From NCBI GenBank assembly GCA_964030785.1, contig OZ034975.1, positions 38,782,069 to 38,846,068 on the forward strand: a stretch of DNA of 64,000 nt, read 5' to 3'. The position numbers and the translations under genes are program-made. Below are positions 48,767 to 59,871 of the stretch, piece by piece. This DNA comes from Siderastrea siderea. Its lineage: Eukaryota; Cnidaria; Anthozoa; Scleractinia; Rhizangiidae. How positions within the stretch are numbered: the stretch's first letter is position 1; every line of letters starts with the position of its first letter. A model generated the notes under the pieces. That model was not told the origin of the DNA and searched no databases. It saw only the letters and a list, made by a program, of their open reading frames with translations.

Positions 48767-49061
48767 ATGGTTTCTTTTAAAGAGTTTCGAGACTTGCTGA
48801 TACTTCTCTACGCTAATAACTCCCTTTCGGACGCAGAATTCGTGCTTCTTTACGAGACCTTCACTTCGAAAAATCCAGATTTTCCCTACGACAGCTACGA
48901 ACGATTCAACTTGGATTCTATGAATGCCGCTGAGTGTAAAGCAGAGTTCCATGTGGAAAAGCAAGATATTCCACGCCTTGTTCAAGCCCTCCAGCTCCCA
49001 CCAGTTTTCAAATGGGAGCAGAGAAGTATTTGCGACGACATGGAAGGTTTATGCATGCTGC
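48767..49061 (+). pseudogene. Harbinger transposase, 5' part
   Basis: The ATG at 48767 opens MVSFKEFRDLLILL and continues with FPYDSYERFNLDSMNAAECK, FHVEKQDIPRLVQALQLPP and DDMEGLCML, the conserved N-terminal block of HARBI1-type transposases. The open frame then runs into the poly-G end of the nested element; everything after LCML is foreign. The continuation LKRVAYPCR lies at 59076, after the second TGCATGCTGC. Confidence 0.92.
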
Positions 49062-49127
49062 AAGGGGGGGGGGGAGGTGTCTCCAAGGAAGATGTTGGTT
49101 CAATCATCACTGCCAGTATGACGTCAC

Positions 49128-49914
49128 GCTTCGCGCTAGTGGTTTTCAAGATGGCGGGCGAAGTGGCAATCGTAGGACGATCTACAAATGTGGCATTTTC
49201 CTCGCTTACATTCCTTCATTTACTAAAGTCAAAAATGCAGAGACAATTGGGAAGATAACCGACTCTTTTTTGGTATTTTTCTGGTAGATCAGACGATAGA
49301 TTATTTTTTAAATTAACTGAAACTCGCTCTCCAAGTGTAGAATGTTCGAGGAAATCTGTCAACAGGTCGCGCTTTCGAGGGTCACTGCATAGCGAATTTA
49401 CGTTGTCTTGTAACAGAAATAGGAGGTTTGGCACAGGATATATTGTTCTTTATGTATGTGGAGTATCAGACTTTAAGCATTTGTGGATCTTCACGTCTTT
49501 CCCCTCAAAGTTGAACATCCGAGCGGCTGAGGGGAAGGAGCTGCTTTAGTCAAGACTTCATGGTACACAGGTGAGAAATCTGAACTTAATACAGTATTAT
49601 ATTGAAATTTCTTTATTGCCATATAACTTTGCTAGTGCAACTGTCACAATTTAAGATTAAATACTACTCTTGGAATTTTGTGGAAGTATGTATTTTCTTT
49701 AGACTGTAAAATTGTAAAATCCACTTTTAATGTTTGTGTAGGAGCCTGATGCATTGGGGGTAGCCAGTGAGGAACTACACAGTTCATGAAAATCATTACC
49801 ATTTAAAATCATAGTAAAAGTCAAATGATTCAGCCATGAACAGTTTCCTTTGTATCAGTTGCTTTTCATTTTCAGTTGGTTCTTCCAGCTGTATAAAATA
49901 CAAATTATTCTGAC
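49128..49914. other. 3' non-coding end of the P-like element
   Basis: Between the subterminal repeat and the USP-like ORF. No other coding signature was found on either strand. Confidence 0.5.
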
Positions 49915-51552
49915 TTATGCAGGGGATGTTCCTCTCCCATGCTCCACATCAACATTATCACTTTCGTTAGAAGAGAAATTGCTTTCTTCCTGCAGGGCAT
50001 AAACCATTTCTTTAAAGGATGTCCTTAAAGGATTTAAATAACTAAATCGGGGTTCACTAATAGATTCGTGTGAATTTTCGTCAACACAACTTGTTGTTTC
50101 TGTTACCCTTGGTTGAGATTTCTGTTTTTTTGTGGGATGCCTTTCTGGTGTATATCCTTGTTTTACAGGGGTTAAATCGCGTCGTTTTAAATTGTTTGTT
50201 TCGGAAATATCTTCCCCTGCTTGTACCAATGTAATCATATTTGAGTCATTAATGAAAGTTGCAGGCACAAAATCAGCTAGTTCATTTTGACTGAAATTGT
50301 CTCTCTTAGAAGCCTCGGTATAATTATCAATACTAAAATCAGATACAAATGTTATAGGTACAGTTGTTGTGGTGTTACAGTGCTGTAACAGAAGGTCACT
50401 TAGGTCAGCAATTTTCATATTTAATTTCATAGGGATATTGTGATACTGTAGAATTGCTTTAATGTTTGCCAGTTTTGCTTTATTGTCACTTAAGGACAGC
50501 AGGCATTTATGTTGCTGAACAATTTCCTTAATGATTTCTTGATTATTTGAATGAATGGACTTGTAAAAAGTAACACAAGGATTGCTTAAGATTGTAGGAT
50601 GCTTTGTTTTGCTTTGTTCAAACATTAAAAGATACAAACTCTCCTTTTCTAAAAATAATGGCTTTAGACCAACAAAGGTTGCTTTGCCATTATTCCATAA
50701 ACCATTATAGGCAAACCATCCCTTTTTTAAGTGTTTTTGAGTAGAATACACCTCGCACCAGTAGTGATGTGATTTTAAGTAAACAATACCAGACAATCTG
50801 TATGTACAGTTGTTGACTTCAATTGTGGTGTTTCCCTTGCCTAGGTTTGGAGTATACCCCTTAGAAGAGTTGTGTGTGTACCCTACAAAGAAAATATCAG
50901 GTGTGTTTGTTACACTCGTTGAACCCAGCAGTGTTGCACCACATGTGTTGGGATTATAATTGACCGTGCATTCAGAATCACTGGTACATATATCATTTCC
51001 ATCAATTTTTGTCAGGACAGAGCATTTTGATGCTGGTGTAAAATCATTTAATGTCAATTTGTGTTTTATCACTTGAATAACATCAAAGTCATTTGAGTTT
51101 AAGAAGAGGTGTGTTTCTAAAACATCATCAGTGGAAATTGGAAACACACTATGAGTGAAACTGCGACATGAATTGTGGCTTTTGTCATTTCCACAAGTGT
51201 ATGAATAATTTGTTTTGATTGAAAATGTGTCTCGAAGTTCACCAGGCATTGATTCTAGAAGCCTGTAGATAATGGAGATGAGAGAGGCTTCTTTTCCATA
51301 TGCATAATGTGTAAACCCACTTTCTGTCTTATCTCTCAACCACTTCCACAGTGTCATTTTACTTTCGTGAAATTTACCTTTCTCCCTCAACACAAAAGCT
51401 TCAAGTAGCTGTTTCAAGCCTTCTGTTAGTTTCGTATTTAAAGAGCAATCAAAATGGCGTTTGAAACTATGATAAATCAATTCAAGGAAAGTGTCTTGAT
51501 GACAGCTGTTATGTATTCCATTTGAACCATACTTGTACGATTGGTATGACAT
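49915..51552 (-). CDS. USP-like deubiquitinase ORF of the P-like element
   Basis: 545 residues, intact. It has the layout of a ubiquitin-specific protease (C19 family). The Cys box is NGIHNSCHQDTFLELIYHSF (Cys17, with Asn15 before it). A mid-region CGNDKSHNSC resembles one half of the USP zinc finger. The His box is SGIVYLKSHHYWCEVYS (His263), followed by GWFAYNGLWNNG, where USPs have the third catalytic Asp/Asn. The C-terminal 120 residues are polar with a basic patch (KKQKSQPR). Homologous-looking sequence continues upstream of the ATG in the same frame (KCQGCKDEEWKCKLNPCEVR) to a TGA near 51650, so the natural start may lie upstream or follow splicing. The expected role is cleaving ubiquitin or the element's own ubiquitin-like domain; that role is inference. 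Confidence 0.8.
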   Translation of the reverse strand: MSYQSYKYGSNGIHNSCHQDTFLELIYHSFKRHFDCSLNTKLTEGLKQLLEAFVLREKGKFHESKMTLWKWLRDKTESGFTHYAYGKEASLISIIYRLLESMPGELRDTFSIKTNYSYTCGNDKSHNSCRSFTHSVFPISTDDVLETHLFLNSNDFDVIQVIKHKLTLNDFTPASKCSVLTKIDGNDICTSDSECTVNYNPNTCGATLLGSTSVTNTPDIFFVGYTHNSSKGYTPNLGKGNTTIEVNNCTYRLSGIVYLKSHHYWCEVYSTQKHLKKGWFAYNGLWNNGKATFVGLKPLFLEKESLYLLMFEQSKTKHPTILSNPCVTFYKSIHSNNQEIIKEIVQQHKCLLSLSDNKAKLANIKAILQYHNIPMKLNMKIADLSDLLLQHCNTTTTVPITFVSDFSIDNYTEASKRDNFSQNELADFVPATFINDSNMITLVQAGEDISETNNLKRRDLTPVKQGYTPERHPTKKQKSQPRVTETTSCVDENSHESISEPRFSYLNPLRTSFKEMVYALQEESNFSSNESDNVDVEHGRGTSPA

Positions 51553-51739
51553 TTGCTGTGAATTAACTGAATTTAATGCTCTTTTTCTTCGTACCTCGCA
51601 TGGGTTGAGTTTGCACTTCCATTCCTCATCTTTGCAACCCTGACACTTTCATGTAACTGTTGTTTGCTTTAAGGGTTTGGTGTTATATTCAAACTTCTTA
51701 ATGTTGTCATTGGATAATAAGGGGTTGGATAATAAGTTG

Positions 51740-54301
51740 TCAAGGGGTAATAAGAGAATTAGACGTGAAACATATGCAAGGACTTTTTGCAGCAATTTGC
51801 ATACTCATTTGCTTTAAACCAAAAACATCTTCATGCCATGCTGGTTCTGTTTCACCAGCAGCAAGATTCCAAAATTTGTATAAGTAATTCAAAAGTAATT
51901 CCAGATATTTATCATCTCGCTCAATAAGGAACACTTTAGTACCAACAGGTGTCCATACAATGTAGTGACATTGCTACGTTGACGTACAACACATTTGTAA
52001 CATAATTTGAGGGATGTGGTTTACACAAACCTTTTTGTATGGAACTGGTTTGCCACCCATAAAAGGACATTTCATCTCTAGGACAGTTGTTAGTTTGCCA
52101 TTTTCCTCTATAATGCCATCTGGGGAAGAACCTAGCCAGTTTTGATTATTGCTGTTCTTTAAGAACCAAATTCCAGTTTCTTTAACAGTGGCTCCATGTT
52201 TGCTTTGAGAAAAGAATTTCTTTAGGTATGTAACTAGAGCACTGTGCTCATTCATAGAGCCCCACAACATAGCCAGATTTGATTCATGATCAACTGCTTC
52301 ATTTTGTGAGCCATGCAAATCATTTGATAGTTGATTCCAGTAATCAGTCATTGCCTTTTTTCCGTACCATCCAAGGGCTGTTGCAGCCTTGCTGGCATTT
52401 ATTATACCCTTACGGACCTCAAACCACTTGGTGCTTCTTTGTTTAAAGTATTTTGGATCATTACTGGCTGTACTGGAAATTGGTTTGTAACATTGGAAAT
52501 GATCCAGACTTTTTTGTGATAAAGTACTTAATAGCCTTGGCAGTGATATGCCAGCATGGTACCATGTCTTCTTCACAGTGGGAGGTTTGTTTTGCATAAC
52601 TGTAGTCTTGGGATTTTTTTGGTCTTCAAATTTTTTAGGACATACAGATTTTAAGTGGCCCTGTTGGCCACATTGAAAACACTTTTGTTTGGTCAGCCAC
52701 TCTTCTTCATGTCCTTCTAGACAATCAGAAGCCCAGTGACCTTGCTTATGGCAACGAAAACAAATATCTGTTGCACCTGCATTTGTTTCAGCTTTCTTTT
52801 GTTCATCTGTTTTTTTTAATTTTTTCAACATTTGTCTTATGGCTGATTCATCTTCTTCATGGAGGGGTGAAAGCCCATCTTTGGCTAAATAGGTAACACA
52901 CCTTCTCTTGGAAAACTTTCTGACAAAAGCAGAAAGAACATCAGTAGATAATTTAATTTGGGATTCTGGAATGTGGATTTCTCTCAAGAGTTTTTTCCAG
53001 TAAAAGCATAATGCCTTTTCACTCTTAATTTTTTTTATTGCTTCTTGAAGTGAGGCATAAGACCAGTTTCCAGTAAAGAAATGTGTTCTCAAAAAAAAGT
53101 CAAGTTTTCTAGCCAACAGGGCTACATGTCTATGGTTCTCACTTGCATGCAGAGCAGTTAGTAGGGGCTGGAAAGTTTGAAGAACTGTAGTAGGTGAAAA
53201 TAGATCAATATATTCTACAGTCTGTTTAACATGCCTTGATATCTGCATTTTTTCTGCTGCATCATGAAAGTTTTCGTCAAATTCCCATGGTACAATGTCT
53301 TCAGTGGCACTTCCAGAGTTTAACTCAGTAGAACACAATTCCCAGCCATCTTTTTCAGTAAAGCTATTTGTATTTTCACATGTTAATTTTGGTTTTGATA
53401 GGGGTAATGAAACAAGATTAGGAAGAGCAGCCCAATCATAAGAACCACAGGTTCCCTTCAGGTCTTTCATTTCAGATGATACCAGTAGTTCTGTTTCGAG
53501 GGTAGCTGAAGACTCAAAAAACTGTAAAGTGGTTGGTTTTCCTCCTGAAACCCTTGCCCTTTGAAGTGAAAAGTAATTTTCCACATCATCCTGGCACATG
53601 GACTTTGGAATGATGTGCAATTCTGGATAATGCATCTGCACATACTGAACCACCCCCAAGAAAGCTCTAATGGTTCTTTTTAGATCCTTGTATGTAAGAC
53701 GAGGAATAAATTTTTTCCAGTGGTCTTTGAGACTGCCACTTGCCTGTGCAGTTGTCTGTTTTGTCTCCGGGTACCAGCTGTCAAACCAAAACATTATAGA
53801 AAGTAGCTGTAGATAGCATAAAGGGTCAAGTTCTGTATTATTAAATATTCTAAACAAATTGTGGCATTGTTTTAAGTATGTGCGTGTTGCAATTGTATCC
53901 TCAGGGGGGAAAGGACCCTTCAGGATGTCTAGTGCCACATCAAGAGAGCAAACAGTAACAGCTCTTTTTACACTCATTTTTGTTCGAGGGGTTAACTTGA
54001 TATGTTTCCAGTTTAACTTTGTTAGGTGGTGTTTGACAACTGGTATCAAATGATCCAGCATAATTTTTTTGCCTTGCATCTCAAGGTGCCTGTCAGGATT
54101 AACAATGAAGTTTCTTAGTTTTTTTAGCATATGGGGATAATCAGATAGCCACCAAATTGGTTTATTGTCGTTAAAAGGATTATATGTTACCCAATTTTGT
54201 GCCCCTGCTCTGCTAAAAAATGCATGAGAATATGTTGAGCCATCAGAAACACCATAGATAATTTCAATTTTTTTTTCATTTTCAAGATGAAGACTTGCCA
54301 A
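51740..54301 (-). CDS. P-like transposase C-terminal half with CCHC knuckles and YqaJ nuclease (one in-frame TAG)
   Basis: Continues the transposase in the -1 frame relative to ORF A. Near the start, IIYGVSDGSTYSHAFF and IWWLSDYPHMLKKLRNF match the second acidic motif region of P/THAP9 transposases. Further on are two CCHC knuckles (CFRCHKQGHWASDC and CFQCGQQGHLKSVC, around residues 515-565), then a YqaJ/lambda-exonuclease-type domain: STKWFEVRKGIINASKAA, LAMLWGSMNEHSALV, WLGSSPDGII, VLEMKCPF. An in-frame TAG at 51976-51974 interrupts the nuclease; the same frame continues with IVWTPVGTKVFLIERDDKYL to 51740. The joined length would be about 850 residues. The break suggests decay or an assembly error. 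Confidence 0.82.
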
Positions 54302-57300
54302 ACAAGTGAAGAGAGAATTTTATGATTTATTTTATTTAATGGAAAAGAAGCAACTGGCCATGAAAAATCCCCCTCTATTGAAGAATAGAAGAATTGGCAG
54401 ATGAGTTTTGCTTTTGTACTAGATGGGATTAGTTCAATGTCATCATCTGTGGTACATGAACTAGGACTAGATTCCTGGTCAGATACAGTGGATGAGGCAT
54501 CTGAATCACTGGATTCTGGGAAATTGTCAACGTCATTGTCCTCTTTTTCATTGTTTAAATCATTTGGGTTCATATTGAGTTCACGGTCAATATTTAAGTC
54601 TTCAAATCCAACCAATTCTCCCGTTCTTTTACAAAGCACAATTCCTTCTTTTATGCTCATCTCATCCCAATGGATACCTCCTATTCCCTTGCAACCCCTT
54701 CTTGTCATTTCCTGTACCATTAGTGCAAGATTTTGTTCGGAAATTGGGGTTGTTGTACTAGCTGCCTGCCTGTATGACTTGGCTGTTTCCCAGCTTGGAA
54801 TGGGGAGAATGCTACGTACAACATCATATCCTGTTTTACGACACTTGCTGGCTATCATGCAGCTCCATTTTATTACAAGGGGATTATATCTCATCCCTTT
54901 GGGGTGTGGCTTCTGTTTGTTTTTTGTTACTTTCCCATGCCTAGCAAATTCCTCCTCCTGACACTTTAATGATTTCAAAGTATCAGTAAGAAGGGCATAC
55001 AACACTGAATTTTCAGTCAGCCACTGGTTTGTTATGGCAATATCCATCAAGTTAGCTAGATCTGAAGAGGTGGGGTTGTAATTTTTGGGAGCGCTTAGGT
55101 TTTTTTGCTTTTCTTTTTGGTACAAAAGATAATACCGTTTTGCCTTTCTTTGGCTCTGGGCAACCATTTTGTGTAGGTTATTGGCCCTAAGTCTTAGTTC
55201 AGCATGAGAAAGACTGCTAAATTTGGCATGAGAATTGTGAGCTGTTTTGGACTGAGAAGAAGATTCACTTTTTTTTGTTAGGAAACGCAAGTTAGAGCGG
55301 AGCAAATTTTGGCATTGTTGGCATCTTACTCTTGATTTGGCAGTTAATTTGTATGAACAAGTTGTACTTCTAATGCACTTAGTAACATTTCCATCCATAT
55401 CTGATCCCCGACTGTCGACATAATATAAAAAAGTGTCTGTCTGCTTTCTTTCAGCAGTATCAATCAATGTGGGATCAGTAATACCAGGGCAAACACGTAA
55501 GTCATCAACTGGTTTGATTATTAGATTAATGGCAGATTTAAATATGTTTGACTGAAACATGTTGGGGGGGAGTTTGCCATTATCCACTTGGTTCCCCATG
55601 ATTTGTACAGTAAACTGACAGATGTCATTTGTTGCTACTGAGATATTGGTTGGAAGGAAAAAGGCCATTTCCTTCCAGTTAGATATTTCTCTCCCATTTG
55701 ATGTGTTTGGTTTTGAAAGGACAACCTTAAGATTGTCACAGGTTGTTTTGGAATGCACAAATGACAATCTCCATGGATAAATATCTGAAAGAACAGATTG
55801 AAACATTGTATATGTACATACATATGCATGCTGGGGCTCTGAGGGGGATTTCCCATTCAAATTTTTCAAAAGCTGAGACAATCCCTCTGTAAAAATCCCT
55901 GCTTGTAACTTTGATGGAAGAGAATTACATTTCTCAGATTCACTGACTTTGTTATCATTTGAACTGGTACTGGGAGTACAGTTCTCAAGTTTATCCTGCA
56001 AGTCTTGTTTGCAGGGCTCAGTTACAAGGTTTAAATGTCCTTGTTGTTCCTCAAACATTGACTGGGCTTTTTTGTATTGATCTTCTAATTTTACAGCATT
56101 GAGAAAAAAAGGCTGACAGGACATGCATATGTAACTTATGGTTGAGCCATCAGGAGGAGAATCTATAGATTTATAAAGATCACTATGAAATTCAGTTCTG
56201 CTTTCAACTGCTTCATCTAAAAAGTTACATGCCACTGTAAACTCAGTATTAAATATTGTTATATTGTGTTTATTGCAGATCTTGTCACTTGAAAGACAGA
56301 CCTCTTTCTTGCATTGTGAACAAGAGACACTGCAAGGAGTTACTTTGAGAGTGCCAAGTTGGGCATTGCTCCTGGATTTTGATTTGGATGATTTTTTTCC
56401 TCTTGAGGGTTTATGTCCTCTGCTTGGCAAAGTGTTGTAATGTTTGTCACACACCCTTAGATTTTTAATGTTCTCAAGATCAGTAAGATCATGAGGACTG
56501 CATTTTAATTCATATTGTCCAATCATACTGTCCAATTTTCGTAAACCTGCCTCCTTGTCACACCCCTTAATACAGCACTGTACACCTCCAATTAACCGGC
56601 CGTTCATAAAAACAGTTCCAGTTATTTCTTTCAGTGGAACAAATTCATTTAAAGGTTTGCCACTACTTGACAGCCAGTATGAATCACTTCTTATGTTCAG
56701 TTTTAAATTAATTTGTGCTCTCAAATCAGTGGTAGTAGCATATGGTGCAAACATAAAGGAATGTGGCTTTCCTGTTATATCCACAAGTGAAATAGAAATC
56801 ACAAACCTTTTTGACCTCAAAACTAAACTCAAGAGAGAGCCTGGGTGCTGAAATTCAATAGATTGTAAACATGAATACCCCAACATTATACCAAGAATGA
56901 TGTACAGAAAAGGGAAAACTAAGGGCATTTCTATGGGATCTCTTGAGCTTGCATCAAAACTCTCCCCCATTGCTACTGTAATCACCACAAATGACACCAC
57001 AAATATAGAATAGGGAAGAACAGATACCACCATTAGAAGAGCAATTGCTACAACATAAACAAGAACAGAATTAAGTTTGTGGTCCACTAGCAGATTTTGA
57101 CTATCAAGGTTGAAAATAATGCAATGGAAGAAAAGGACAAATGTGAGCATAATAGTGGGAAGAAAGAATTTTGATGCAAGGCTCCATACATATTGCACCA
57201 AAGAGAATTTATGAACTGGCTTAGCTCGTAAGCACAAATTATAAACTGGCTCAAGCAGAGACAAACACATCCTTAATATGATGACACCAGGAAATAGTAG

Positions 57301-57702
57301 AAGTTCCAGTGAATAGTTTATTCCTTTATGATACTTCAAAATTTGGTAATAACATGTTTTGTATACCATTTCCCAGCAAAAGGGGGTTATGAGGGTGATG
57401 GTAATTACAAAGAAAGAAAACATGGCAGAAAATAAATTGTTCAGGTCAGGGTTGTGCACTTGTCTTACTTTATACTGTAGTAAAAACAAGGATAACACAA
57501 GGGGGGAATACTTTCCAAGCACACTCAACTTTGTTGTTATTTGATTTTGGAGCACATTTGATTCTCCAGTGGCTTGTGATTTGGATTTGTCAGTAGATGG
57601 AATGTAAATACTGCAGGGAAGCCTTGAAAGCTTTGGGAAGGCTTGCGCAATGACACCTATTACAACAATAAATATAAAAATTGCAAAATAATTATTCATC
57701 AT
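54187..57702 (-). CDS. Multi-pass membrane, ubiquitin-like, zinc-finger and P-like transposase N-terminal half (ORF A)
   Basis: 1171 residues from ATG at 57702. Residues 1-290 hold about seven hydrophobic segments (for example FAIFIFIVVIGVIA, LVYVVAIALLMVVSVLPYSI, LVFPFLYIILGIML). Residues 300-373 align by eye with ubiquitin: VISISLVDITGKPHSF, TTDLRAQINLKLNI, SSSGKPLNE, then TVFMNGRLIGG, ending in Gly-Gly. A C2CH motif follows at once (CIKGC, 36 residues, CDKH), the spacing of a THAP finger though other THAP landmarks are weak; then a second Cys cluster. A helical region precedes MRYNPLVIKWSCMIASKCRK and IPSWETAKSY, then GIGGIHWDEMSIKEG with the first catalytic Asp (about residue 1013) and TGELVGFEDL, as in P/THAP9 transposases. 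Residues after the A9 run are out of frame. Fusing membrane and ubiquitin-like parts to a transposase is unusual. Confidence 0.85.
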   Translation of the reverse strand: MMNNYFAIFIFIVVIGVIAQAFPKLSRLPCSIYIPSTDKSKSQATGESNVLQNQITTKLSVLGKYSPLVLSLFLLQYKVRQVHNPDLNNLFSAMFSFFVITITLITPFCWEMVYKTCYYQILKYHKGINYSLELLLFPGVIILRMCLSLLEPVYNLCLRAKPVHKFSLVQYVWSLASKFFLPTIMLTFVLFFHCIIFNLDSQNLLVDHKLNSVLVYVVAIALLMVVSVLPYSIFVVSFVVITVAMGESFDASSRDPIEMPLVFPFLYIILGIMLGYSCLQSIEFQHPGSLLSLVLRSKRFVISISLVDITGKPHSFMFAPYATTTDLRAQINLKLNIRSDSYWLSSSGKPLNEFVPLKEITGTVFMNGRLIGGVQCCIKGCDKEAGLRKLDSMIGQYELKCSPHDLTDLENIKNLRVCDKHYNTLPSRGHKPSRGKKSSKSKSRSNAQLGTLKVTPCSVSCSQCKKEVCLSSDKICNKHNITIFNTEFTVACNFLDEAVESRTEFHSDLYKSIDSPPDGSTISYICMSCQPFFLNAVKLEDQYKKAQSMFEEQQGHLNLVTEPCKQDLQDKLENCTPSTSSNDNKVSESEKCNSLPSKLQAGIFTEGLSQLLKNLNGKSPSEPQHAYVCTYTMFQSVLSDIYPWRLSFVHSKTTCDNLKVVLSKPNTSNGREISNWKEMAFFLPTNISVATNDICQFTVQIMGNQVDNGKLPPNMFQSNIFKSAINLIIKPVDDLRVCPGITDPTLIDTAERKQTDTFLYYVDSRGSDMDGNVTKCIRSTTCSYKLTAKSRVRCQQCQNLLRSNLRFLTKKSESSSQSKTAHNSHAKFSSLSHAELRLRANNLHKMVAQSQRKAKRYYLLYQKEKQKNLSAPKNYNPTSSDLANLMDIAITNQWLTENSVLYALLTDTLKSLKCQEEEFARHGKVTKNKQKPHPKGMRYNPLVIKWSCMIASKCRKTGYDVVRSILPIPSWETAKSYRQAASTTTPISEQNLALMVQEMTRRGCKGIGGIHWDEMSIKEGIVLCKRTGELVGFEDLNIDRELNMNPNDLNNEKEDNDVDNFPESSDSDASSTVSDQESSPSSCTTDDDIELIPSSTKAKLICQFFYSSIEGDFSWPVASFPLNKINHKILSSLVWQVFILKMKKKLKLSMVFLMAQHILMHFLAEQGHKIG
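54268..54276 (-). promoter_or_regulatory. A9 slip site between transposase halves
   Basis: On the minus strand AAAATGAAAAAAAAATTG is read KMKKKL in ORF A and NEKKIE in ORF B. The family sequence moves from the first frame to the second exactly here, a -1 shift. A9 contains A-AAA-AAA, a known slippery heptamer, so programmed slippage is possible; a one-base deletion in a homopolymer is the simpler explanation. No pseudoknot was checked. Confidence 0.5.
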
Positions 57703-57714
57703 TGATTTTTATTG

Positions 57715-58235
57715 TTCCCTTTATTGTATTTCTTTCATTAAATAACCTTAAATAGTATTTTACTGTCCTTTTTTTTAAAAAAGTACCTTTCACCTAATTA
57801 ATTTTTACAATACTAAAGCTAATTATTAAATTATAATTGTTTGTTTGTTTCTTACAGTAAACTAAATTTAATAAATATTTCTTTATTAAAATAACCTTAA
57901 ATAATAATTCTTTATTAAATAACCTTTAATAATATTTTACTGTACTTTTTTTAAAAAAAAGTTCCTTTCACCTAATTAATTTTTACAATACAAAGACTAA
58001 TTATTAAATTATAATTGGTTGTTTGTTTCTTACAGTAAACTATATTAGAAGCATATGACCTTGATATGCTTCTGACTATATTTAATAATATTTCTTTATT
58101 AAAATAACCTTAAATAATAATTCTTTATTAAATAACCTTAAGTGATATTTTACTGTACTTTTTTAAAAAGTACCTTTCACCTAAAAATTCTGTACAGTAC
58201 TAAAACTAATTAATTTTTCTTTCTTAAATTACTCA
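57715..58235. repeat. AT-rich tandem repeat upstream of ORF A
   Basis: Three imperfect units of about 170 bp, each with TTAAATAACCTTAA, TATTTTACTGTAC, a T-then-A run, GTACCTTTCACCTAATTAAT and (in two of them) TTGTTTGTTTCTTACAGTAA. It lies where the promoter of the minus-strand operon-like cluster should be. Confidence 0.85.
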
Positions 58236-58373
58236 ATTTTTTTTTTTTGGATTTTCCAGTTTTATTGTATTGTTTACTTTGATAACTAAAATAAAATAGC
58301 GAAGTAAGAAAAGCAAAGCCAGGCACAACTGCAATAAAAAGCAAACTCAAGCAACACTGAGGACCCCTCTAAA

Positions 58374-58562
58374 TTATATATACAAGCACTGAAATGAAAG
58401 AATCAACACGGCCAGCAAAAGCCACAAAATCCAACAGATTTTAACAGGAATCGACGAAGTACACCACAGTAAGCTAGTGAAAAGAAAACAAAAGAACCTG
58501 GAAAGAGAATTTACACCAGCCAACTGAAGAAGTTCGCCAAGGCACGAGCAATAAGTTAACAA
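58374..58562 (-). CDS. Small hydrophobic ORF upstream of ORF A
   Basis: 62 residues with two hydrophobic segments (FFCFLFTSLLWC and WILWLLLAVLILSFQ). It could be a non-initiating 5' exon of the membrane region or a chance ORF in AT-rich sequence. No splice join was established. Confidence 0.25.
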   Translation of the reverse strand: MLTYCSCLGELLQLAGVNSLSRFFCFLFTSLLWCTSSIPVKICWILWLLLAVLILSFQCLYI

Positions 58563-59065
58563 ATTTTAGACGAAAGCAACACCTTCGCACTCAAACGGAA
58601 AGACGTGGATATCGGCTTGGCCAAGCGACACAGAACGACGGTGAAATTAAACGTTGATAATCAAGTAGTAAAACCTCCTGTTATGAAGCTTTCTGAAGCA
58701 AACTGTGTAGTAAAAAGGTGGATGTTTTAAACGGACTTCGCTTGTCCCGGAAGCAAAATGGCGGTCCCGCGGTTTGTCCCGTTCAAAAAATAAACCAAAT
58801 TACAGGATTACGGGAACACAAAACAAGAAACAAATTTGACACACAGGCAGTAAAAATTTAAAAGAGTACACACTTACGAGGAATTAGCGAACAGTAGCTA
58901 TAAAAGCAATAAATCTAATCCTTTCTTGACCTCTGTCGTGGCGCACCTAAACTCAATCCCGCGTAAAACTGAACAGCGCTCTCTCGTTGCCGTGTGACGT
59001 CATACTGGCAGCGATGAGTCGGTCACGAATAAACAACTGGAAACAAAAGAGTCACCTCCCCCCCC

Positions 59066-59871
59066 TGCATGCTGCTGAAACGTGTTGCGTACCCCTGCCG
59101 ACTCAGTGATATGATACCCCGGTTTGGTCGACCAGTCTCTGTGCTGAGTCTGATTATAAATCACATCATGGATTATGTCTATGATTTTCATGGGCACCGG
59201 ATCACCCAGTGGAATCAAGATATCTTAAAAACTGAATTACAATGGGCATAAACGGGTTCATGCCCTAAAATTTCAATCACTGGCCCTGCCCAATGGACTC
59301 ATTGGAAACCTGTATGGATCAGCAGGTAGGTTCCTGTTAGAAAATGCACTTTATAGTGTATTCTTGATCAACTGGTATTAAAGCAGTTCCAAATTTCTTG
59401 CCTGAAATTACTTTATTATTAATTTTTGTTTCAGAGGGACGTAAACACGACGCAGGGATGCTGGCGGATTCCGGCCTACTTCATGACCTGCAACGGTTCG
59501 CCTTCTCCCCAACAGGTTAACCAATGTGTATATATGGAGATCTAGCCTACCCTTAACGCGTCCACTTACAAACCCCATTTCGTCACCTCCCCCTTGCTCT
59601 ACCCATGCAGGATTACAATGAATCGATGAGTGCTGTCCGGATTGCTGTTGAGTGGCTATTTGGTGACATCGCCAATTCTTTTAAATTTCTTGACTACAAG
59701 AACCTAAAGATCGGCCTTAGCAGTGTGGGTAAAATATATGTTGTTTCTGCATTACTTCGCAATGCCATAACCTGCCTTTATGGCAACGAAACCAGCGATT
59801 ACTTTGGCATTGATCCCCTACTCTGGAACAATACTTTCAGAAAAATGGAACTCTGTAACTATGATAAGTGA
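59066..59871 (+). pseudogene. Harbinger transposase, 3' part
   Basis: It resumes at LKRVAYPCRLSDM and reads RFGRPVSVLSLIINHIMDYV and WNQDIL, then shifts frame to YNGHKRVHALKFQSLALPNG and LIGNLYGSA (exon to 59325; intron; exon 59435-59871). The shift marks a deletion of roughly 35-45 codons that in relatives carry the FxDGT motif with the first catalytic Asp. After EGRKHDAGML (second Asp) come two in-frame stops (59518-59520 and 59554-59556), then SMSAVRIAVEWLFGDI (Glu) and GLSSVGKIYVVSALLRNA. The protein is dead through the deletion, the stops and the nested insertion. Confidence 0.9.

Follow-up and report, generated by a model that had tools for sequence, protein, structure and literature searches.

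A P-superfamily transposon of Siderastrea siderea combines a ubiquitin-like domain ending in Gly-Gly, a P-type transposase and a putative USP-like protease in one polyprotein

Why would a transposon carry a ubiquitin-like domain (Ubl) directly ahead of its transposase and a putative deubiquitinase (DUB) behind it? The question is raised by an element in a 64,000-nucleotide stretch of Siderastrea siderea DNA (GenBank assembly GCA_964030785.1, contig OZ034975.1, positions 38,782,069 to 38,846,068, forward strand). The whole stretch is called the window here, and positions are counted from its first letter. The element spans 49062..59067 (10,006 bases), has its genes on the minus strand and reads CAGGGG...CCCCTT on that strand. 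The order of its polyprotein is a multi-pass hydrophobic region, a Ubl ending in GG, a THAP-like finger, the P core, CCHC knuckles, a YqaJ nuclease, a USP-like protease, an HeH-like region and sometimes a ParB-like part. We give about an even chance to the reading that this is a membrane-tethered P-transposase precursor, which would be cut after GG to free the transposase. That the transposase is a membrane-bound zymogen freed by self-cleavage at the internal Ubl, a maturation of the ubiquitin-fusion type, is held tentatively, a little short of even; to our knowledge, no earlier case of such maturation of a transposase has been described.

In the window copy the coding region is split into three pieces on the minus strand. 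ORF A (54187..57702; ORF list, Pfam and Kyte-Doolittle hydropathy) covers the hydrophobic region, the Ubl, the finger and the first part of the P core. The ORF B frame (51977..54319; Pfam and comparison with the relative P0001) holds the remaining core, the CCHC knuckles and YqaJ, and departs from the ORF A frame near 54300. The ORF C frame (49918..51648) holds a zinc motif, the USP-like protease and the HeH-like region, and is continuous with the transposase in the frames of relatives. Because relatives carry these parts in frame, the three ORFs are read as pieces of one broken polyprotein. The chain is interrupted near 54300, again by a stop (51974-51976), somewhere within about 51743 to 51804, and immediately 5' of 51648. 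The ParB-like part is also gone for the most part, with a decayed remnant at 49647..49948 (minus strand; tblastn with the C-terminus of P0003).

Continuity was seen in several relatives. P0003 (1819 aa) has the P core, CCHC, YqaJ, protease and a ParB-like end in this order, and P0029 (2321 aa) unites in a single sequence two hydrophobic segments, the Ubl, the core, CCHC, YqaJ and the protease. In fam3 (C1:74.92-74.93 Mb) a single open frame of 3315 codons includes all main parts, the protease among them. The hydrophobic N-terminus, Ubl-GG and transposase stand together in P0028, P0029, P0030 and the fam3 frame, and also in fam2, where part of the core is deleted; the fam2 copy is evidence for the architecture, not for activity. 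Ubl and protease lie within the same element in fam1 to fam4 of the source genome. Of ten further copies of the window's own family, three have core, YqaJ, protease and C-tail in a single frame (2174, 2244 and 2248 codons); none of the ten has a frame open from the N-terminal mark through the C-tail. An earlier note on this DNA had taken the protease for a separate gene, which is ruled out by its in-frame position in P0003, P0029, the three own-family copies and the 3315-codon frame. Its expectation that relatives would carry the same parts was mostly borne out, by P0028, P0029, P0030 and the fam3 frame, and by fam2 with its partial core.

By its P/THAP9-type core and its 8-bp duplication, the element is a member of the P superfamily. 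ORF A matched the P core model PF21787 above the cut-off (E 1.7e-6, 28.8 bits against 24.6), and the match (residues 994-1040) includes GIHWDEM, the acidic motif of the RNase H-like core (54658..54678, minus strand). When the relatives P0003 and P0029 were aligned to the P transposase 6p5a (E 6.8e-6 and 5e-5), WLSDYPHM (54128..54151, minus strand) fell on SDTPHL and DDVENYF (53570..53590, minus strand) on QDIVEHF of that protein. Profile A2 also reached 6p5a (1.7e-5) through its full-length rows, the window row covering residues 1-394 only. The GTP-binding insertion domain PF21788 was found in P0004 (4.3e-10) and P0029 (1.3e-12) and was not listed for the window frames. Behind the core, two stretches matched zf-CCHC (52640..52762, minus strand; E 2.4e-6), followed by the YqaJ domain (51983..52429, minus strand; PF09588, E 2.2e-14, 54.4 bits against a cut-off of 22), which ends next to the in-frame stop given above. 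The core, knuckles and nuclease named in the earlier note all stand. NCBIfam gave no match for three proteins.

The identity of the Ubl is solid, since both homology to ubiquitin-like folds and a C-terminal GG were found, in agreement with the ubiquitin fold ending in Gly-Gly that had been read from the window. The domain (56584..56847, minus strand; residues 286-373, ending GRLIGG) was placed by phmmer, profile A2, an alignment of Ubl sequences and AlphaFold2/Foldseek. By phmmer its best PDB sequence match was ISG15 (E 6.9e-5). With an E limit of 0.1, profile A2 matched 266 distinct PDB sequences, and the best 60 of the 266 were mostly ubiquitin and ISG15 (4hk2, 3.7e-7; ISG15 9nn9, 1.3e-8), supporting a beta-grasp fold. 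In the matches to ISG15 and ubiquitin the GG falls in register. The Ubl of P0029 alone matched a redesigned ubiquitin (E 0.0022). Even with E as high as 1 allowed, the window was not among the matches of the Pfam ubiquitin model, which in relatives gave E 0.02-0.09, below the cut-off. The AlphaFold2 model of the Ubl was poor (mean pLDDT 39.8) and showed the order strand-strand-helix-strand. Foldseek placed ubiquitin first for this model (probability 1.00, E 2.5e-3; none at 1e-3), a rank to be taken as a hint only, as are those for the protease below, since both models are of low confidence (mean pLDDT below 40).

The end of the Ubl is its most constant part. G-R-L-x-G-G was invariant in five sequences aligned without anchoring on the motif. 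Among seven distinct Ubl sequences (window, fam2, P0002, P0028, P0030, P0029 and fam4), which we had cut to end near GG, 7 of 81 gap-free columns were invariant, including the terminal R, G and G, and the lowest pair was 15% identical. GRLIGG was exact in eight of the ten own-family copies and GQLIGG in one; the motif was not found in C7_14.6. The Ubl of P0029 ends in RLRGG.

Right after GG comes a C2CH finger (56437..56583, minus strand). Its first cysteines lie 2-3 residues past GG in six of the seven Ubl sequences, P0029 having no finger there, and in fam5, which has no Ubl in the copy read, GG likewise precedes them by 2-3 residues. The C2CH finger of the earlier note is thus present, and it looks like a divergent THAP finger. 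Three of six fingers matched Pfam THAP, each from model position 1 and each below the cut-off (fam5, 0.0035; window, 0.025; P0002, 0.065), and those of P0028, P0030 and fam4 were unmatched. An ordinary P transposase begins with a THAP finger. A cut after a GG that lies 2-3 residues ahead of the finger would therefore rebuild a normal P-transposase N-terminus. This position of GG is the strongest architectural hint that cleavage may occur, and it gives a sharper form to the proposal that ubiquitin-type chemistry controls release of the transposase.

Ahead of the Ubl, residues 1-285 (56848..57702, minus strand) form the multi-pass, membrane-like hydrophobic region, which near its start lacks 35 residues compared with P0001. 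Hydrophobic segments in this place were computed by the Kyte-Doolittle method in the window, P0001, P0002, P0028, P0029 and P0030, and were seen by reading in fam2 and fam4. The multi-pass membrane region claimed earlier is to that extent upheld, as hydrophobic segments on a Kyte-Doolittle basis, and membrane insertion is a prediction from them. Under the precursor reading, translation would take place at the membrane and the N-terminal segments would tether the product, leaving the Ubl in the cytosol between anchor and finger. A protease would then split the chain behind GG; the simplest candidate is the polyprotein's own USP-like domain, acting in cis or in trans, and host DUBs are the other. 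The cut would free a transposase of finger, core, CCHC and YqaJ with a standard N-terminus, the anchor would stay behind, and the freed protein would reach the nucleus.

The candidate protease is the ORF C domain. It has an N-terminal Cys box, NSCHQD (51493..51510, minus strand), and a C-terminal His/Asx box, SHHYWCEV...GWFAYNG (50701..50772, minus strand; motif scan and family alignment), with HYW and GW(F/Y)..(N/D). The 12 sequences of a family alignment all agreed at N, S, C and D in the first box and at H, W and GW in the second. A Cys box, then a His box, then Asx is the order of the USP (peptidase C19) motif, and the domain has this order. Foldseek with the AlphaFold2 model, made from an alignment of 17 rows, ranked three chains of USP15 and USP47 as the first four of 39 hits (E 0.038-0.24). 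Motifs and this weak structural ranking point to USP, and sequence searches lent no support. We consider a USP-type fold probable. The USP-like protease of the earlier note holds at the level of a motif-based triad and ranking, not of sequence profiles; activity of the protease is presumed.

Several results weigh against the precursor reading. No UCH/USP profile match was obtained in Pfam/profile searches of the window or its relatives, and PDB sequence searches with the ORF C domain gave nothing. In hhalign comparisons with human USPs, the score fell below the shuffles with two USPs (3.4; shuffles up to 21.4) and within them with four (16.0; shuffle mean 14.9, maximum 21.2); in the latter the His boxes were aligned together. 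The protease model had a mean pLDDT of 38.4, with a best Foldseek E of 0.038 and none at 0.001. The transposase core of these proteins has instances of R-x-x-G-G too (RVSGG and RIAGG, by pattern scan), so the case rests on the Ubl before and the finger behind, not on the letters GG. Estimates of selection are rough as well, because dS is near saturation and the copies are decayed: when the window's family was compared with fam2, which is 49% and 58% identical to it in two blocks, the Nei-Gojobori method gave dN and dS of 0.22 and 1.47 for the Ubl, 0.23 and 1.41 for the protease, 0.44 and 1.50 for the hydrophobic part, and 0.40 and 1.36 for the next stretch, and it gave no estimate of dS for the finger region. 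With a dN/dS ratio of about 0.15-0.16, Ubl and protease are nevertheless clearly constrained, which counts in favour of the precursor reading.

Two relatives are also at odds with the simple scheme. The fam5 copy (C7:48.9 Mb) has the protease, a hydrophobic N-terminal part (by reading) and GGG, and no Ubl in the copy read. In fam6 (L051-L053, C3:37.61-37.63 Mb) finger, core, CCHC, YqaJ and protease are present, and the hydrophobic-Ubl part was not found in about 7.3 kb upstream (tblastn E up to 1; queries fam1, P0028, fam3 and fam4), where small exons could escape such a search. The protease is thus not strictly tied to the Ubl, which leaves the idea of ubiquitin-controlled release with two relatives that it does not cover. 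As side observations, fam5 (L049, C7:48909600-48912700) passes from its N-terminal region straight to GGGKQCC, as though it had lost the Ubl and kept the di-glycine and finger; the fam6 locus, the single row at 72% identity to P0004, looks intron-bearing and may be a domesticated gene.

These two relatives keep alive a serious, if rather unlikely, alternative, in which the USP-like domain is a general deubiquitinase that shields the transposase or its partners from the proteasome and the Ubl is a docking or regulatory part that stays uncut. Protection of this kind has a precedent in the excerpt of PMC9741609, where the VTD deubiquitinases of Helitrons are proposed to prevent degradation of proteins needed for transposition. 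However, it leaves unexplained the conserved terminal GG, the site of this GG just before the finger, and the hydrophobic region that precedes them.

Alternatively, host deubiquitinases might do the cutting at GG, as they do with ordinary ubiquitin fusions, and the protease of the element might have some other task. Host DUBs do cut linear ubiquitin fusions, and the Ubl does end in GG, even RLRGG in P0029. This is quite improbable, given that Ubl and protease share an element in fam1 to fam4 and that the Ubl sequences are far from ubiquitin. Still less probable is a role for the N-terminal half, exposed at GG, as a ubiquitin-like modifier or membrane signal that disturbs host ubiquitin or innate signalling: ISG15 is the best PDB sequence match of the window Ubl, but the Ubl stays joined to the hydrophobic region, and a free modifier would need a second cut, for which no site was identified. 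Transposons do capture host fragments, but passive capture with no role in transposition is the least probable reading of all, as the same order recurs in several families, dN is well below dS and the Ubl is constrained.

The usual picture of a transposase is that of a soluble protein in the nucleus; under the precursor reading, if true, post-translational release would be added as a control of jumping, and the element would offer a natural ubiquitin-fusion system that is directly testable. The element also shows that P elements, best known from flies, have much diversified. Like the Drosophila P element and THAP9, the element has the PF21787 core with its match to 6p5a, a THAP-like finger, an 8-bp duplication and, in relatives, the GTP-binding domain PF21788. 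Unlike them, it has the hydrophobic N-terminus and Ubl-GG ahead of the finger, CCHC, YqaJ, USP-like, HeH-like and ParB-like parts behind the core, and frames of up to 3315 codons.

Partial likenesses were found elsewhere. The transposon ISL2EU, according to the excerpt of PMC4482050, likewise pairs a THAP-bearing transposase with a YqaJ nuclease, but it belongs to another transposase superfamily (PHIS), has YqaJ on a second ORF, and is described in that excerpt with no mention of a Ubl or a protease. Helitrons, by the excerpt of PMC9741609, encode VTD and OTU deubiquitinases and so resemble this element in carrying a deubiquitinase (here putative), but they are rolling-circle transposons. A VTD-type DUB was considered for the ORF C domain and rejected: VTD enzymes are defined there by an Asp-x-His motif, and by reading of our alignment no D stands two residues before the conserved His. 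The same excerpt describes viruses whose DUB-type proteases cleave their polyproteins at di-glycine sites. Here too a di-glycine motif and a protease (putative) share one polyprotein, but the element is not a virus and its GG stands at the end of a complete ubiquitin-like domain. No viral or prokaryotic relatives were found in scans of viral contigs (A1, P0029, A2 and A4) or of genome contigs (A4). In the literature, no P-type element with Ubl, membrane and USP parts appeared in titles or abstracts among the matches listed; Repbase was not covered by this search, and an earlier description is possible.

Mobility of the element was evident from its ends. It is flanked by the 8-bp target site duplication CATGCTGC at 49054..49061, where it lies inside the 10-bp repeat TGCATGCTGC, and at 59068..59075 (comparison of the flanks). 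When the flanks were joined with one copy of the duplication kept, an open frame of 161 aa resulted. The precise ends described earlier are supported by these repeats and the closing frame, with the right end moved from 59065 to 59067. Imperfect inverted repeats, in which a run of G is followed by AGGTG, form the ends, and subterminal inverted repeats of 24 nt lie at 49104..49127 (3' end of the element) and 58994..59017 (5' end), 96% complementary to each other. A search of the source genome (831 Mb, 402 contigs; counts are lower bounds) with ORF A gave at least 43 rows, several of which are pieces of one copy; identity was 97% or higher in at least 36. In five of the ten further copies the two ends could be recognised, and all five had perfect 8-bp repeats when small boundary shifts were allowed; these five and the window copy share the CAGGGG start. 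The main aligned blocks among copies were about 98.6-99.6% identical, apart from one 95% block in C4_30.8. The window's element is a multi-copy family that was recently active.

The flanks at the insertion site (48767-49061 and 59076-59871) contain the frame that the element interrupts. Pfam gave no match for its 161 aa, and a later frame in the flank matched DDE_Tnp_4 at E 3.7e-4, below the family cut-off. Because a frame closes on removal of the element and this sub-cut-off match lies downstream, the element was probably inserted into an old Harbinger-type ORF.

Some further features lie at the margins of the polyprotein. Ahead of ORF A, an AT-rich region (57697..58255) contains three repeat copies at a spacing of 177-213 bp (repeat families D1 and D2), possibly promoter or transposase-binding repeats. 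The C-terminal ParB-like part occurs in P0003, P0008 and L041/L042 and is mostly lost in the window's family. It is called ParB/sulfiredoxin-like after the source label of P0008, which is related to ORF C (65% identity) and labelled Desmophyllum pertusum, a coral; no Pfam model matched the ParB-like end of P0003. A weak Tea_mid (telomere ends associated) match in L046:3400-5412 (E 1.8e-4, below the cut-off) overlaps the HeH-like region. The fam3 frame starts with a GDSL/SGNH-hydrolase-like domain (L045:255-4787, C1:74.92 Mb; E 1.4e-6, below the cut-off), and long P/Q/T-rich repeats lie between it and the hydrophobic region.

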